64,000 nucleotides of DNA from an uncultured Gammaproteobacteria bacterium (GTDB taxonomy: Bacteria > Pseudomonadota > Gammaproteobacteria > JAADHQ01), in assembly GCA_947258755.1 (NCBI GenBank), contig CAMYJO010000017.1, positions 1 to 64,000 on the forward strand. Reading direction: 5' to 3'. This document shows positions 29,491 through 37,584 of this stretch, piece after piece. The position numbers and the translations under genes were made by a program. Each line of letters starts with the position of its first letter. Positions within the stretch are counted from its first letter, which is position 1. The notes under the pieces are model-generated. The model was given only the letters and a program-made list of their open reading frames with translations, was not told where the DNA came from and searched no databases.

Positions 29491-31713
29491 CTAAAACATA
29501 TCCTGCGGGTCGATATCGAGCGACCAACGCACCTTACGCGATGATTTCAGCTGCTCAATCTGCGGCAACCAGGCCGATATCAGCCCATGCAGGTCGGCAC
29601 GCTCCGGCGACTGCAGCAACAACTGCGCACGATAACGCCCAGCACGTTTTTCCATCGGCGCCGCCACCGGCCCCAACAACATTACCTTGTCACTGCCGGG
29701 GATGTCGCTGGCGCAGGTCACGGCATCGCGTAAAAACTGTATCGGCATGGACTGTTGTGTGGCCTCTGCGCGTAACATGGCCAGGTATGAGTACGGCGGC
29801 CACTGCGCCGTCTGCCTTTCCTGCAACAGGTAACGGGATAGCGCAGGGTAATCCTGGCGTACAGCGTATTGTAGCAACTCATGCTCCGGATGGTGTGTCT
29901 GGATCAACACCTCCCCGGCACGGTCGGCGCGACCGGCGCGACCCGATACCTGCATGATCAACTGCGCCATGCGCTCGGCACTGCGAAAATCGGCACTGAA
30001 TAGCCCCTGGTCACTGTCGAGCACGGCCACCAGGCTCAGGTTCGGAAAATGATGGCCCTTGGCCAGCAACTGCGTACCCAGTAATATCTGATCACGTCCC
30101 GATTCGGCATCCTTCAGTTTTTGTTCCATCGCTCCTTTACGCCGGGTTGTGTCTCTGTCGATACGGGCAATGCGCTTGTCTGGAAACAAGCGCTGCAAGG
30201 CCTCCTCGGTACGCTCGGTGCCCTGCCCGATCGGGCGCAGATCAGCACTACCACAGGCCGGACAATGGCTGTCGGGTCGACGCTCACTGCCGCAATGATG
30301 ACAGCGCAGGCGACCGCTGGCCTGATGCAGGGTCATGTGCGCATCGCAGCGTTGGCATTGACTGGTCCAGCCACAATCATGACAGAGTAAGGTTGGTGCA
30401 TAGCCGCGCCGATTAAGGAACAACAAGGCCTGGCCGCCACTGTCGACATGCTCATGTATCTTGTTTATCAACGGTTCGGACAGACCTTCATCCAGGTGCT
30501 GGTGCTTTAAATCTACCAGGTACATAGCGGGATGCGTGGCCGCCGCGGCTCGCTCAGGCAACTCCAGCAATTGGTAGCGCTGCTGTTCGCTATTCATAAT
30601 GCTTTCCAGCGACGGTGTCGCCGAACCGAGGATTATCGGTATGTCATTATGTCGGGCGCGCACGATAGCTACATCACGCGCCGAATAACGGCAACCATCC
30701 TGTTGTTTAAAGGACAGATCATGTTCTTCATCAACAATAATCAGCCCCGGCTCGGGCATGGCCGCAAACACCGCAGAACGTGTACCGATAACAATCCGGG
30801 CCTGGCCACTTTGTGCCTGCAACCAGTTATAGGCGCGCTCGCCATCATTCAGGCCAGAGTGAAATATGGCCATGGGCACATCAAAGCGTTGCTTGAATCG
30901 TTGCATCAGTTGCGGTGTCAGGCCGATTTCCGGGACCAGGATCAATACCTGCCGCCCCTGCTGCAGGACTGTCGTCATTGTCTGCAAGTAGACCTCGGTC
31001 TTACCACTGCCAGTGACCCCATGTAGCAGAAAAACACCAAAGCGATCCAGTCCCGCCATGATCTTACTGACTGCCTGTTGTTGGGCATCATTAAGGGCGA
31101 GCCCCTGTTCCAATAGACGCACCTCGACGGCCCGATCAATCGCTAGCGCTCGGCACTCAACCCAGCCCTTGGCCTCGAGGCTGCGCATCGTCACCTTCCA
31201 GTTACCGCTGTGCGTGTCCAATTGCGCTTCAGTCAGACCATCGACTGCCTGCCGCAGTGCTGTCATCATCGCTACTTGGCGAAACGCACGCGCTGGCACG
31301 TCGGTCGATCGACCAAGCTCGGTCAGACACCAGGCAACAGGCCCGGTAATAGCCGCGGGCCTGTCTTGTCTGAGCCGTGCCGGCAAGGCGGTCGCATAGA
31401 CCTCACCCAACGGGTGATGATAGTACTGGCTGGTCCAGTGACAGAGCTGCATTAACTCACTGTTTAGAAGGGGTTTTTCATCCAACAGGTGTATGGCATG
31501 CTTGAGCCGGGCTGACTCAACACTGGAATCGGCCACCACCGCATCGATAATACCCACCAGCTTGACCCGCCCGAACGGTACCAACACCCGCAATCCTGCC
31601 CGCAGCAACTCGGGATCGGTATCATCGGGCATTAGGTAGTCAAAACATTGTCGCAGCGGTACCGGGACCGCGACCCGGATAATGGTTTTTTGCGCCTGTG
31701 CTTGCATGCGCAT
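29491..31713 (-). CDS. priA: Primosomal protein N' (replication restart helicase)
   Basis: A 740-residue superfamily 2 helicase that reloads the replisome at stalled forks. The 3'-DNA-binding domain is at the N-terminus (about 10-110), Walker A GVTGSGKTEVY near 230-240, the DEEH box near 325, and eight zinc-binding cysteines between about 440 and 490 (CHDCGWTSQCQRC, CHHCG, CPACGS). ATGs at 31713 and 31707 are both possible. It is divergent from the HD-GYP regulator. Confidence 0.96.
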   Translation of the reverse strand: MRMQAQAQKTIIRVAVPVPLRQCFDYLMPDDTDPELLRAGLRVLVPFGRVKLVGIIDAVVADSSVESARLKHAIHLLDEKPLLNSELMQLCHWTSQYYHHPLGEVYATALPARLRQDRPAAITGPVAWCLTELGRSTDVPARAFRQVAMMTALRQAVDGLTEAQLDTHSGNWKVTMRSLEAKGWVECRALAIDRAVEVRLLEQGLALNDAQQQAVSKIMAGLDRFGVFLLHGVTGSGKTEVYLQTMTTVLQQGRQVLILVPEIGLTPQLMQRFKQRFDVPMAIFHSGLNDGERAYNWLQAQSGQARIVIGTRSAVFAAMPEPGLIIVDEEHDLSFKQQDGCRYSARDVAIVRARHNDIPIILGSATPSLESIMNSEQQRYQLLELPERAAAATHPAMYLVDLKHQHLDEGLSEPLINKIHEHVDSGGQALLFLNRRGYAPTLLCHDCGWTSQCQRCDAHMTLHQASGRLRCHHCGSERRPDSHCPACGSADLRPIGQGTERTEEALQRLFPDKRIARIDRDTTRRKGAMEQKLKDAESGRDQILLGTQLLAKGHHFPNLSLVAVLDSDQGLFSADFRSAERMAQLIMQVSGRAGRADRAGEVLIQTHHPEHELLQYAVRQDYPALSRYLLQERQTAQWPPYSYLAMLRAEATQQSMPIQFLRDAVTCASDIPGSDKVMLLGPVAAPMEKRAGRYRAQLLLQSPERADLHGLISAWLPQIEQLKSSRKVRWSLDIDPQDMF

Positions 31714-33213: not shown

Positions 33214-33240
33214 TGTCAACCGATTTGCCGCTGATACGTT
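33214..33240 (+). promoter_or_regulatory. Candidate ECF-sigma promoter (AAC-N16-CGTT)
   Basis: TGTCAACC at 33214-33221 and CGTT at 33237-33240, with 16 bases between AAC and CGTT, resemble the AAC/CGT core of promoters read by ECF sigma factors. It lies 41 bases before the repeat-protein start and upstream of the linked sigma gene, so autoregulation is possible. One site only, so the match could be chance. Confidence 0.3.
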
Positions 33241-33281: not shown

Positions 33282-33687
33282 ATGAAATACAGCATTCTGA
33301 GTATTGCCAGCATTTGCGCCCTCGGCCTCAGCAGCACCCTACTTGCCGCTAGCGATGACCGCGGTCAACGCATTGAAGACCGCATGGACCAACGCGGTGA
33401 TCGTATCGAACAACGTCTGGACTTACGTGGTGACCGTATCGAAGGACGACTCGATGCCCGCGGCGACCGTATCGAGGATCGATTTGACAGACGCGCACAG
33501 CGATAATGGCAAGGATGGCCTGGCTGCTCGTTTACAAAACCGTGGCGACATGATCAACAAGCGCCTGGACAGAAAAGGCGATCGCGTCAATTCACGCCTT
33601 GATCGTAGAGGTGCACGCATCAATGATCGCATGACTCGTCGCGGTGAATTTGCCCATCGTCGTATTGACCGACGTCAAGGTCGGTAA
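33282..33687 (+). pseudogene. Exported 11-residue-repeat protein, reading frame broken
   Basis: The ATG at 33282 (AGGAG 10 bases upstream) begins a signal peptide (about 1-22) followed by charged units of 11 residues of the type DxRGDRIExRL, three full copies. The frame stops at TAA 33504-33506. The same repeat then continues in the +1 frame from about 33505 (NGKDGLAARLQNRGDM, then DRKGDRVNSRL, DRRGARINDRM) to the TAA at 33685. A one-base shift near 33500-33505 joins them into one protein of about 134 residues. Eleven-residue periodicity suggests a hendecad helix or coiled coil. It may be a real mutation, a sequencing error or, less likely, programmed frameshifting. Confidence 0.75.
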
Positions 33688-33698
33688 GCTTACTGGCA

Positions 33699-34307
33699 AT
33701 GCGCTGTAGAATGCAGCATGATGATATTGCAGGTGAAACAGGCATTAAGGAAAATATTCTGGACAACACTCAGGCACTTAACCAGTTTCTGGCCGGCGTC
33801 GAACGCAAGGCCTTCAAGATCGCTGAATTTGCTGTCGGCAATCGTGAAGAGGCGCTGGACATTGTCCAGGACAGCATGCTGGGCCTGGTGCAGAAATATG
33901 CCAATAAACCCAGCGAGGAATGGAAACCTCTGTTTTACCGAATATTACAATGCCGTATTCGTGACTGCTATCGTAAAAACAAGGTCCGTTCGCGATGGAT
34001 GGGCTGGTTAAAATTTCGTCATCAAGATGATGGCGAGGAACAGGGCAATCCTATCGAAGATGTGGCCGACCCTGTTGCCAGGGAACCGCTACAAACGATT
34101 GCCAATGAAGATTCGATCGAAAGACTGGAAGCTGCGATACAACAACTACCGGCGCGACAACAACAGACCTTCATGTTGCGCACTTGGGAAGGACTGAGCG
34201 TGGCGGATACCGCCATTGCGATGTCCTGTTCACAGGGAAGCGTGAAAACACATTACTCACGAGCACTCAGCACACTGCGAAAAACACTGGAGGAACATTG
34301 GCCATGA
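33699..34307 (+). CDS. RNA polymerase sigma factor, ECF-like
   Basis: A 202-residue sigma-70 family protein with only regions 2 and 4. Region 2 is about 35-100 (AFKIAEFAVGNREEALDIVQDSMLGLVQKY and FYRILQCRIRDCYRK); region 4 is about 140-198 with LPARQQQTFMLRTWEGLSVADTA and the helix-turn-helix SCSQGSVKTHYSRALSTLRK. ATGs at 33699 and 33711 are both possible starts. It overlaps the next gene by an ATGA, as sigma/anti-sigma pairs commonly do. The order sigma, small membrane protein, DUF3106 resembles sets known from betaproteobacteria. Confidence 0.9.
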   Translation: MRCRMQHDDIAGETGIKENILDNTQALNQFLAGVERKAFKIAEFAVGNREEALDIVQDSMLGLVQKYANKPSEEWKPLFYRILQCRIRDCYRKNKVRSRWMGWLKFRHQDDGEEQGNPIEDVADPVAREPLQTIANEDSIERLEAAIQQLPARQQQTFMLRTWEGLSVADTAIAMSCSQGSVKTHYSRALSTLRKTLEEHWP

Positions 34308-34651
34308 ACGATGACGAATTCATCAGCCATGTCAAAAAGACACTGGACCAACAGACAAAAGCACTGGACGGCGAAACACTATCTAAGCTTAACCAGGCAC
34401 GGCAGCTCAGCCTGCAGCAGGCGCAACAGCCCCTCAAGCAACGCTCACCATTGGCCTGGGCACCCCTGGGCGGTATTGCCGCAGCGCTGCTGTTGACCAG
34501 TATCTTTATGTTCAAGTCAGACGAATTGACAAACCTGAGTGACAACCCCGTCGATGAGATAGAAATAATCGCCTCTTCTGACAACCTAGACCTGTATGAG
34601 CAACTGGATTTTTATTTATGGCTGCTTGAGGAGAATGCCGGTGCAGTCTAG
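34304..34651 (+). CDS. Putative anti-sigma-like single-pass membrane protein
   Basis: A 115-residue protein beginning at the ATG that overlaps the sigma stop. Residues 1-47 are a charged, helical cytoplasmic segment (MNDDEFISHVKKTLDQQTKALD), one membrane helix is at about 51-70, and a short acidic periplasmic tail follows. Arrangement and topology fit a membrane-bound anti-sigma factor (DUF3619-like), though no zinc-finger motif (HxxxCxxC) is present. Assignment is by position and shape, not by a diagnostic motif. Confidence 0.65.
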   Translation: MNDDEFISHVKKTLDQQTKALDGETLSKLNQARQLSLQQAQQPLKQRSPLAWAPLGGIAAALLLTSIFMFKSDELTNLSDNPVDEIEIIASSDNLDLYEQLDFYLWLLEENAGAV

Positions 34652-34859
34652 CGCAATACTGATAACACTTTGTCTGCTGACCTGCGCACTACCCGCACAG
34701 GCCGAACAGGCAGACGCCGGAGATTTACCCAGTGATGAATTACTCGACTTTCTTGGCCAATGGGAACAAGTCGATGGGCAGTGGATAGACCCGACAGAAT
34801 TACAGGAACTCAGCATGTTGGAGCAAGACAGTATCAAGGGTGAAAGACATGAAGACTAG
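34635..34859 (+). CDS. Small exported acidic protein of unknown function
   Basis: About 74 residues: a signal peptide (SAILITLCLLTCALPAQA) followed by a short acidic mature part with SDELLDFLGQWEQVDGQWIDP. GAGGAG at 34628-34633 could serve the ATG at 34635 or, with better spacing, the in-frame GTG at 34641. It overlaps the previous gene by 17 bases and the next one by about 11, so it is embedded in the operon. I do not recognise a family. Confidence 0.65.
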   Translation: MPVQSSAILITLCLLTCALPAQAEQADAGDLPSDELLDFLGQWEQVDGQWIDPTELQELSMLEQDSIKGERHED

Positions 34860-35406
34860 TTTATTAAAATCAATCCTGGCTATTTGCCTGATGCTATTAC
34901 CCGTCTGGGCGCAAGCCGACAGCGGCGTGGCATGGGACGCATTGAGTGAAAAGGAACGCACCATACTCAAACGCTTTGAGGGTAAATGGGATGACTTAAG
35001 CCCTCAACGTCAGTCACAACTGGAACGTGGCGCGCAACGTTGGCTGGGCATGACAGCCGAGGAACGTAAACGTGCCGGCAAGCGCCTGAAGCACTGGCGT
35101 GGACTAAGTGATGAGCAGCGACAATGGATGCGCGAACGCTTCAAACGCTTTCGCAACCTGCCAGCCGATGAACGCGAACAATTACGGAAAATGTATAAAC
35201 GTTTCTCGCAACTCCCTGAAGAAAAACGTCAGCAAATTATTAAACGCTGGAAAAGCATGCCACCAGAAGAGCGTCAGGCCCTGCGCAAACAACTAAGCCG
35301 CATGACCCCCGAGCAAAGGCGGCAATTCAGGCAGCGCTGGAAATCCATGTCACCCTCTGAACGCAGGGCTATGCGTCAGCGCTTTATGCGTAGACATGCA
35401 CACTAA
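34849..35406 (+). CDS. DUF3106-domain helical periplasmic protein
   Basis: A 185-residue exported protein: signal peptide to about residue 24 (PVWAQA), then an all-helical, strongly basic mature region with repeated units of about 22 residues built on W/F-x-x-[ML]-[STP]-P-x-E-R (for example KSMPPEERQALRK, SRMTPEQRRQF, KSMSPSERRAM). This is the DUF3106 pattern. It resembles periplasmic helical chaperone-like sensors such as CpxP/Spy in being short, helical and charged, but that is analogy only. AAGGG at 34835-34840 favours the ATG at 34849 over the GTG at 34840. Confidence 0.82.
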   Translation: MKTSLLKSILAICLMLLPVWAQADSGVAWDALSEKERTILKRFEGKWDDLSPQRQSQLERGAQRWLGMTAEERKRAGKRLKHWRGLSDEQRQWMRERFKRFRNLPADEREQLRKMYKRFSQLPEEKRQQIIKRWKSMPPEERQALRKQLSRMTPEQRRQFRQRWKSMSPSERRAMRQRFMRRHAH

Positions 35407-35436
35407 TTTCAACCCGATTATTAATTAGGATGGACA

Positions 35437-36306
35437 ATGCGACAACCTACACGTGATGACGCGCATGTCATTGTTTCCATGCCCGGATTGATTCTATATA
35501 GCCTGACTCTGCTGGGCATGAGCCTAGTGACACTGAACGCCAACGCCAGTGGCTCCCTACAGATCCAATACCTGCAGGACTCCAGCAATACCGAGGATAT
35601 CTTTATTGACCTAAATACCGAGCTGAGTAAAAAAGTCTCACTATTTGCCAGCGCGGGTATAACACGCTCACCTGTCGATGCTGCCGACCTGGACCTTGAT
35701 TACCAAAGTCTCGGCCTTGAGCTACAAATAAGTAAGCGCTTTGATGTTGAGTTTGAGATTGGCCAATATGGTCAAGGCAGGGATATCAATGCAGAAACGT
35801 TTGCGACACAGTTACGCTGGGCGACGGACGACTGGTCTTTCAGCTTCAAGCCTCAGTATAACGAATTCGAGGTCTTATTAACCACGCTGAACAGGACTAG
35901 AAAATTCGACAGCACTGGCATCGGCCTAACTTTAGGCTACTACGGCATTGAGAACTGGGAATACACACTGTCATACGATACCTATGACTATTCGTTCGAC
36001 CTGAGAATACTACCGCTGATCGCACGCATCAGAGACATATCTGCGAAAGCGCTGACAGTAGCGTATGGCCTGAAGGATCATGTTGTTAGTGCCGATATCA
36101 CCTACCTGGCCTCACAAACAGATATCACCCTCTCTTATGCCAGAAGTCAATCGGCCATCGACCACACATCATCAAACATTACATCATTGGCATTCGATTT
36201 CTATCATTACCAACCCTACAAACTAGGCATCGAACTCGGCGCTGTCGGCTCCGACATCGACACTGCCAGTTATTATGGCGGCATGACGGCAGGCTACAGC
36301 TGGTAA
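35437..36306 (+). CDS. Predicted outer-membrane beta-barrel protein
   Basis: A 289-residue protein with a signal peptide ending near residue 38 (TLNANAS), after an extended N-terminus. The mature part is a run of short amphipathic strands (SLGLELQISKRFDVEFEIGQYG, LTLGYYGIENWEYTLSYDTYDYSF) and ends in a tyrosine/tryptophan strand, GYSW, as outer-membrane barrels do. AGGATGG lies just before the ATG. It begins 31 bases after DUF3106 and is probably the last gene of the sigma-factor operon. The family is unknown to me. Confidence 0.65.
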   Translation: MRQPTRDDAHVIVSMPGLILYSLTLLGMSLVTLNANASGSLQIQYLQDSSNTEDIFIDLNTELSKKVSLFASAGITRSPVDAADLDLDYQSLGLELQISKRFDVEFEIGQYGQGRDINAETFATQLRWATDDWSFSFKPQYNEFEVLLTTLNRTRKFDSTGIGLTLGYYGIENWEYTLSYDTYDYSFDLRILPLIARIRDISAKALTVAYGLKDHVVSADITYLASQTDITLSYARSQSAIDHTSSNITSLAFDFYHYQPYKLGIELGAVGSDIDTASYYGGMTAGYSW

Positions 36307-36846
36307 TTATTCCTGCAACAAGCGACGGATCATTGATTCCGTCTGTTGATAGCGACCCTCGCCAAAATGATAGTAACGAATCATGCCCTGCTTATCGACC
36401 AGGTACATGGCCGGCCAATAACGGTTTGAATAGCGCTTCCAGATAGCAAAATCATTATCGATGGCAACCGGATATGAAATTTTATTTCGTTTTAAGTAGG
36501 CGCTGATATTGCCGATGTCGGCCTCATGCTCAAACTCGGGGCTATGCACCGCCACGATCTCGAAACCCTGCTGCTGATAGCTTGAGTACCATTGCTTCAC
36601 ATAGGGTTCTACATTGCGACAGTTATAGCAACCATAGGTCCAGAATTCCACCAAAACAACCTTGCCTTTCAGTGCTGAGTTATCCAGCGGTTTGCTATTC
36701 AGCCACCGGCTTGCAGTAATGGAGGGCGCCTTGATATTAACAAGCCGTTCAGCGGCAGATGTATCGATAGCCCGGCTATTAAATACCGCCAATAGTGTCA
36801 GCAGGAGCAACAGGTAAATAACGCCACTGGCAATTTTGCTTTTCAT
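36307..36846 (-). CDS. Membrane-anchored thioredoxin-like (TlpA/redoxin) protein
   Basis: About 179 residues from the ATG at 36846. One N-terminal membrane segment (about 5-24) anchors a periplasmic thioredoxin fold with the redox motif WTYGCYNCRNVEPY, an insert EFEHEADIGNISAYLKRNKISYPVAIDND and the cis-proline region YWPAMYLVDKQG. The family reduces or transfers electrons to periplasmic cysteines. It follows the spondin gene by 51 bases and shares its transcript, so it may act on that protein; the spondin product has two cysteines in its mature part (in QCANIPGPVCHG). Confidence 0.83.
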   Translation of the reverse strand: MKSKIASGVIYLLLLLTLLAVFNSRAIDTSAAERLVNIKAPSITASRWLNSKPLDNSALKGKVVLVEFWTYGCYNCRNVEPYVKQWYSSYQQQGFEIVAVHSPEFEHEADIGNISAYLKRNKISYPVAIDNDFAIWKRYSNRYWPAMYLVDKQGMIRYYHFGEGRYQQTESMIRRLLQE

Positions 36847-36897
36847 TGATTTCCACCATCTGCGCCCTGCGGGCATACCTGCAGGGCGCTTGTGAAA

Positions 36898-37584
36898 TTA
36901 TTCTTGCACACGTACTCGGGTGATTTTTACCATAGCCACCGGGTTACGCCAATCACGTTCGGCTGCATTTAGCTCAACAGCGTCAGCACCATGAGCATGG
37001 ATGCCGGCATGAACATGCACATAGCCTTCACCGTCTTCATCAGGCGAAGGACCTACGCCATGACAAACCGGACCAGGTATATTCGCACACTGCTCATCAT
37101 TCGCTTCACTACCGGCGTCATAGGCGACAACAAAATGTTTAGCTGTATGAAAGCCCCTGGGCAAGGAAACTGATTTCAATGCCATAAAAGCATCATTGGT
37201 CGGGATCAACATGGCCGCCATGCTTAGAAAACGCGCCCGTTTGCCGGCCTTGATGATGATTGTCCGCGACATACCCGGCTCCAACAGAGGCCCTGATGTT
37301 TTTACGCTAAAGGTTTTACCCGTTGCGGTCAGCGCCGTACTCAAGGGTTCTGTGTTGCCACTTTCGGCCAGTGTCGCCAGCTCATCACTGGCAGGTCGTC
37401 CCAGTTTAAATAGCTGCGGCCCACGTTTGTGTGTTGCCAAAAGAATCGGCGTGAAGGATTGGCCACGCGTCAGGTTGGTTACTTTCACTTTATAACTAAT
37501 CGCGTCGGCCTGCACCTGGGTGGAGAAAACGCAGACGGATGCCAGTAGCAGGGCCTGCATTTGTTTCGGTAATGATATCGACAT
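36898..37584 (-). CDS. Secreted spondin-domain protein
   Basis: A 228-residue protein with a signal peptide (about 1-26, VQADA). The mature part is a Spondin_N domain: YKVKVTNLTRGQSFTPILLATHKRGPQLFKLGRPAS, LATLAESGNTEPL and GTSRT-like GMSRTIIIKAG, with the C-terminal YVHVHAGIHA motif rich in histidine. Cys pair in CANIPGPVC. Eukaryotic spondins are extracellular adhesion proteins; bacterial members have no settled role. AGGAG lies 6-10 bases before the ATG, and an inverted repeat and a candidate regulator site lie just upstream. Confidence 0.88.
   Translation of the reverse strand: MSISLPKQMQALLLASVCVFSTQVQADAISYKVKVTNLTRGQSFTPILLATHKRGPQLFKLGRPASDELATLAESGNTEPLSTALTATGKTFSVKTSGPLLEPGMSRTIIIKAGKRARFLSMAAMLIPTNDAFMALKSVSLPRGFHTAKHFVVAYDAGSEANDEQCANIPGPVCHGVGPSPDEDGEGYVHVHAGIHAHGADAVELNAAERDWRNPVAMVKITRVRVQE

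Follow-up and report, generated by a model that had tools for sequence, protein, structure and literature searches.

A SigAb-family ECF sigma factor operon with DUF3619 and DUF3106 partners in an uncultured gammaproteobacterium, and the predicted regulon of exported proteins in its relatives

Positions 33282 to 36306 of the window, by which we mean the whole 64,000-nucleotide stretch of DNA analysed here, encode a sigma factor in company with a membrane protein and a set of exported or outer-membrane-like proteins, an arrangement that raises the question of which signal this sigma factor answers and which genes it serves. An earlier note, made from the sequence by itself, had read the locus as an envelope-stress circuit in which helical proteins signal to a membrane anti-sigma factor, and had described the gene set as one without assigned function. 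The latter description no longer holds, as the orthologous genes of Acinetobacter baumannii, sigAb-aabA-aabB, have now been characterised (Bacon et al. 2025, PMC12153292). The idea of a circuit appears to be largely right and its core already known, and what appears to be new is the breadth of the system and its predicted regulon. We consider it highly probable that the locus is the operon of a SigAb-family ECF sigma factor in which a DUF3619 protein serves as the brake and a DUF3106 protein as a co-brake, stress releases the sigma factor, and exported proteins are its targets.

Gene content of the locus

The six features listed in the earlier note were all confirmed, on the + strand and in the order it gave. 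The reading frames are tightly packed: the sigma factor and DUF3619 genes overlap by 4 nt, the DUF3619 and small acidic protein genes by 17 nt, and the small acidic protein and DUF3106 genes by 11 nt, and the barrel-like gene starts 30 nt downstream of the DUF3106 gene. The sigma factor (33711–34307, with 33711 as the likely start, taken from congeners, in a frame open from 33699) matches NCBIfam NF006550 with 235 bits against a cut-off of 173. The membrane protein (34304–34651, 115 aa), the predicted AabA-type anti-sigma factor, matches Pfam DUF3619 at an E value of 9e-5, just over the cut-off, and is built of a basic N-terminal part, one transmembrane helix, and an acidic periplasmic tail that contains an invariant Phe and an invariant Trp.

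The AabB-type periplasmic DUF3106 protein (34849–35406) is basic and is composed of short-helix repeats of about 18 residues; the median charges are −10 for the DUF3619 tail and +17 for DUF3106. An AF2 model of the DUF3106 protein, computed from two sequences, consists entirely of helical hairpins at low confidence (mean pLDDT 60). The earlier note had likened this protein to the CpxP and ZraP type, a kinship that the sequences do not support, as a PDB profile search related DUF3106 neither to these nor to any other solved protein; the DUF3619 profile likewise found no related family among solved structures, and a literature search returned no mention of DUF3106 or DUF3619. Compared with genome G002, the sigma factor, DUF3619, and DUF3106 genes are all under purifying selection, with dN/dS of about 0.1, 0.2, and 0.1, respectively.

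The small acidic exported protein (34635–34859, 74 aa) carries the motif PSxELLEFLGxWExxxGxWxDP and belongs to no family in Pfam or NCBIfam; its gene sits between those for DUF3619 and DUF3106 in about 63 of 99 loci. We considered that it might mimic the DUF3619 tail, since both contain an LExLExL-like stretch, and profile comparison gave this idea no support. The outer-membrane-barrel-like protein (35437–36306, 289 aa) ends in Trp, as do 16 of 17 ORFs related to this protein, and found no family in a Pfam search; its AF2 model from two sequences is unusable (pLDDT 33). A barrel gene lies immediately 3′ of the DUF3106 gene in about 15 of the 99 loci.

Distribution, promoter, and relation to SigAb

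Among 370 sampled gammaproteobacterial genomes, 100 encode DUF3106 above the cut-off. The earlier note had proposed a comparison of DUF3106 neighbourhoods, and in a census of 99 loci (98 fetched, plus the window) the expected partners recur: 95 of the loci contain the sigma factor and 97 contain DUF3619, and those without DUF3619 are contig ends. The note had also stated that its reading would fall if the genes did not occur together in other genomes, and this refuting condition is clearly contradicted by the census. The order sigma factor, DUF3619, DUF3106 is constant wherever all three were found. Co-occurrence of the three is far beyond chance, and such operons are present in over a quarter of the sampled genomes. 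The set is not confined to betaproteobacteria, where the note had placed it; Acinetobacter carries it as well. As judged by orthology, this distribution shows a SigAb switch that is widespread in gammaproteobacteria, contrary to the Acinetobacter-specific label given to it previously (PMC12153292). In about 25 of the 99 loci, priA (29491–31713 in the window) is a neighbour of the operon, encoded on the other strand; this is an old conserved neighbourhood in which a functional link is not obvious.

For an unbiased search for the promoter, pairs of words separated by a spacer were counted in the 700-bp regions ahead of 95 sigma genes. The pair GTCAA-N17-CGTT is exact in 63 of the 95 regions, compared with 17 of 95 for the next unrelated pair, and the fuller form TGTCAACC-N15-CGTT, whose spacer lengthens to N16 in ten cases, precedes 85 of 93 operons when up to one mismatch is allowed, versus 0 of 93 shuffled ones. 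In the window, the predicted ECF promoter TGTCAACC-N15-CGTT occupies 33214–33240 on the + strand, 42 nt before the first start codon; it is the sole match with up to one mismatch (0.16 expected) and is conserved in the three congeners. Where a gene has been inserted between promoter and sigma factor, the motif precedes the inserted gene, which in the window is the hendecad gene. This conserved GTCAACC / CGTT promoter does not match the RpoE type, GGAACTT / TCAAA. Beyond the operon, thioredoxin-like and Spondin_N-domain genes on the − strand (36307–37584) converge on it; the pair is present in just two of the three congeners, and no second motif site occurs in the window. The published ECF classification may, we presume, already list this sigma group under a number of its own, with a promoter prediction.

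The same core promoter had been defined by mutagenesis for A. baumannii SigAb as GTCAAC-16/17-CGTT (PMC12153292); our motif was derived independently of that work, before its core was known to us, and the A. baumannii locus (L290) bears TGTCAACC-N16-CGTT. A protein search of plasmid records led to A. baumannii records, which are chromosome-sized except for one of 561 kb, and we identified sigAb-aabA-aabB there by gene order, protein sizes, and promoter rather than by locus tag. In these records a sigma factor, a small transmembrane protein, and a DUF3106 protein follow one another in the same overlapping order. The window sigma factor is 40% identical to SigAb over 172 aa, and their NF006550 equivalog scores are equal, at 235 and 237 bits. 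In the sigma factor tree, both fall into one group of 92 sequences (support 100/100) apart from the CnrH-like copper sigma factors, the place of SigAb inside the group being unsure because of its long branch. DUF3106 is recognised by Pfam in both organisms (E values of 3e-32 in the window and 2e-9 in A. baumannii). The N-terminus of AabA aligns with the DUF3619 profile (E value of 9e-7), and the Pfam DUF3619 model itself misses AabA, so that what links the two is their position, their topology, and a short match at the N-terminus. In its position, its overlap with the sigma gene, and its single-helix topology, the window DUF3619 protein resembles AabA, and its anti-sigma activity is predicted by this analogy. 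Taken together, the sequence comparisons indicate that the core operon is orthologous to sigAb-aabA-aabB, with its gene order and promoter conserved.

The hendecad gene and the predicted regulon

The first feature, which the earlier note had taken for an exported protein of 11-residue repeats, is real in its periodicity and is not an intact gene. A lag of 11 gives the strongest autocorrelation in the repeat protein, a value reached by none of 2000 shuffles, and the sequence describes a charged amphipathic helix with one apolar stripe; weak matches of the hendecad profile to apolipoproteins were read as this common periodicity and not as homology. The frame from 33282 ends at 33506 after 74 aa, truncated by a frameshift, and the later repeats run in another frame (33494–33687, + strand), still reading as coding. 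Relative to the three congeners, where the gene is a single uninterrupted ORF of 142–155 aa, 8 nt are missing at about 33494 (33490–33506). Programmed frameshifting was rejected for the split gene, as the 8 nt are absent by comparison with all three congeners.

A broken first gene could mean that the operon is decaying in the window organism, the disrupted hendecad gene and a missing second target marking a lost output. The 8-nt deletion itself fits such a course, as do the single exact promoter site in the genome and a search of that genome in which no intact hendecad copy was found elsewhere, the split gene returning two matches in two frames. We nonetheless regard decay as improbable: the sigma factor, DUF3619, and DUF3106 genes are under purifying selection, and the second half of the broken gene, read in its shifted frame, looks constrained to a similar degree as the sigma gene (dN 0.13, dS 1.39, a ratio of about 0.1). 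Because this half is still constrained, the break would be either recent or an assembly error.

In other genomes the hendecad gene lies immediately upstream of the operon in about 15 of the 99 DUF3106 loci. Of 30 hendecad genes, 29 are preceded by the motif with at most one mismatch, including several located well away from the sigma operon. DUF3106 is present in 28 of the 33 genomes that have a hendecad gene, compared with 106 of 370 overall (Fisher P 2e-12). The hendecad protein was cast in the earlier note as a sensor; since its promoter is kept when the gene is unlinked from the sigma gene and the gene is missing from most sigma operons, it looks instead like an output of the sigma factor. 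Once exported, it may bind membranes, or metal or other cations.

These observations bear on a more general reading, a response to envelope damage of the RpoE/RseA or CpxP-like kind in which helical proteins, the hendecad protein included, would detect misfolded proteins of the envelope and relay this to the anti-sigma factor. Such a reading would account for a periplasmic helical partner and a membrane anti-sigma factor sharing an operon, and for predicted targets that are envelope proteins. It is hard to reconcile with a hendecad gene that marks output, with a DUF3106 family unrelated to solved proteins, CpxP and ZraP among them, and with the behaviour of the one orthologue examined, which was activated by copper and not by the other conditions assayed and did not recognise RpoE promoters (PMC12153292). 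We therefore think a general damage signal, as the earlier note had it, quite unlikely, and return to a SigAb-type switch with exported proteins as output.

Across 80 DUF3106-bearing genomes, the exact motif occurs at 113 sites, compared with 18 for the reversed pattern, and 35 genomes that match neither DUF3106 nor the sigma factor contain 2. Within the loci that were read, 118 sites divide into 28 directly before a sigma gene and 90 others; 48 of these 90 have the start of an exported protein within 330 nt downstream, compared with 51 of 600 random positions. About 40 of the 118 sites are either intragenic or followed by nothing that a crude signal-peptide rule recognises as an exported protein. 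DUF4382 lipoproteins of about 490–640 residues, identified through Pfam for one representative and through shared sequence for the rest, bear the motif in 13 further genomes and in all three congeners. Single cases include EF-hand, His-rich, Cys-rich, glycine-rich, and helical proteins and a second barrel-like protein. On this distribution of promoter sites, it is very likely that the sigma switch drives odd, charged, repeat-built exported proteins.

In one locus (L037, positions 3293 and 3782), tandem motif-driven exported proteins rich in His, Arg, and Asp are encoded just upstream of the sigma operon. In six others (L115, L128, L129, L131, L135, and L030), a DUF4382 lipoprotein gene with its own motif copy lies just past the barrel gene, an adjacency from which the two products may work together. 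Eleven loci (L195, L208, L219, L224, L225, L228, L236, L238, L246, L251, and L258) have sites without a close downstream ORF of at least 50 aa, although in L208 a hendecad gene is present in an over-extended frame. Some of the ORF-less sites may be promoters of small RNAs, since one such site in A. baumannii drives the small RNA SabS (PMC12153292). In the genome of the window organism, the operon promoter is the sole exact site, and a search allowing one mismatch gave further sites that are mostly intragenic and none that is convincing; with this single site and a broken hendecad gene, the regulon in this organism may extend no further than the operon.

Proposed mechanism and comparison with known systems

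In A. baumannii, AabA (DUF3619-like) and AabB (DUF3106) both inhibit SigAb, AabB is modelled as wrapping the periplasmic end of AabA, and SigAb is autoregulated and has relA and a small RNA as its direct targets (PMC12153292). These results bear out the earlier proposal of a sigma factor, a membrane anti-sigma factor, and a periplasmic helical partner acting as one circuit. The promoter core, autoregulation, the anti-sigma activity of both partners, and the copper response were demonstrated in that orthologue only and would extend to the window organism by analogy. There, the DUF3619 anti-sigma factor would hold the sigma factor at the inner membrane, and the basic periplasmic DUF3106 protein would bind the acidic DUF3619 tail and so keep the brake closed. 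Envelope stress (copper or another metal, to go by one tested relative) would open the brake, and the freed sigma factor would transcribe from TGTCAACC-N15/16-CGTT promoters. Its own operon would be the first target, giving positive autoregulation together with fresh brake; in relatives that have them, hendecad proteins, DUF4382 lipoproteins, EF-hand, His-rich, and helical proteins, and a barrel would follow, presumably with a protective role. Copper is our best guess for the signal in the window organism because it acts in one tested relative and because copper operons surround the nearest outgroup sigma factors.

A broader proposal, which we find possible but doubtful, makes SigAb the Acinetobacter representative of a sigma system found across the class. 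The chief task of that system would be to stock the periplasm with charged proteins built of repeats (hendecads, EF-hand, His-rich, Cys-rich, helical) and with DUF4382 surface lipoproteins, all of which would buffer or bind metal or other cations; in this view the small acidic exported protein would be another regulator, the third, in competition with the anti-sigma tail for DUF3106. A very common, uncharacterised operon is in any case now placed beside the experimentally studied SigAb system. The motif of its promoter is well enough defined for direct targets to be predicted across dozens of species, and hendecad exported proteins, DUF4382 lipoproteins, and the small acidic neighbours of DUF3106 gain a first functional context as predicted members of a stress regulon.

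Among known systems, CnrH-CnrY-CnrX of Cupriavidus and the CnrH-like copper operons of sphingomonads share with the window operon an ECF sigma factor, a very small membrane anti-sigma factor, and a periplasmic helical partner. The sphingomonad plasmid sigma factors are the next relatives found, at about 30–35% identity, and those of L291, L292, and L293 are the closest outgroup to the SigAb family that was identified. On these three plasmids, a CnrH-like sigma factor, a small protein, and a periplasmic heavy-metal sensor adjoin copC and copD, and a copper oxidase and copB are also present on two of the three. Their sigma factors form a separate branch of the tree, their gene order differs, and their partner belongs to a heavy-metal sensor family and not to DUF3106. 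A strict metal switch of the CnrYXH type, in which DUF3106 would itself be a metal-binding sensor like CnrX, draws on these copper operons with their periplasmic sensor, on the modelling of AabA-SigAb after CnrY-CnrH, and on the activation of SigAb by copper (PMC12153292). DUF3106 proteins, however, contain few His or Cys residues and matched neither CnrX nor the heavy-metal sensor family in Pfam or PDB profile searches, and the sigma gene opens the operon here but closes it in CnrH-like operons; we judge a sensor of this kind unlikely and prefer DUF3106 as a co-brake.

RpoE-RseA-RseB of Escherichia coli follows the same logic of sigma factor, membrane brake, and periplasmic co-regulator, but with another sigma family and promoter, an RseA about twice as long, and an RseB unrelated to DUF3106. 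CpxP, Spy, and ZraP are likewise small periplasmic helical proteins with LTPEQ-like turns, but the DUF3106 profile has no match to them in the PDB and no LTXXQ hit appeared in the Pfam scan. The SigAb system of A. baumannii has the NF006550 sigma factor, the overlapping order of sigma factor, small transmembrane protein, and DUF3106, and GTCAAC-16/17-CGTT before the operon in common with the window. Its DUF3106 protein is shorter, and the window adds the upstream hendecad gene, the small acidic exported protein, and the barrel; the predicted regulon in relatives of the window organism consists of exported proteins, whereas that of A. baumannii comprises relA and a small RNA.
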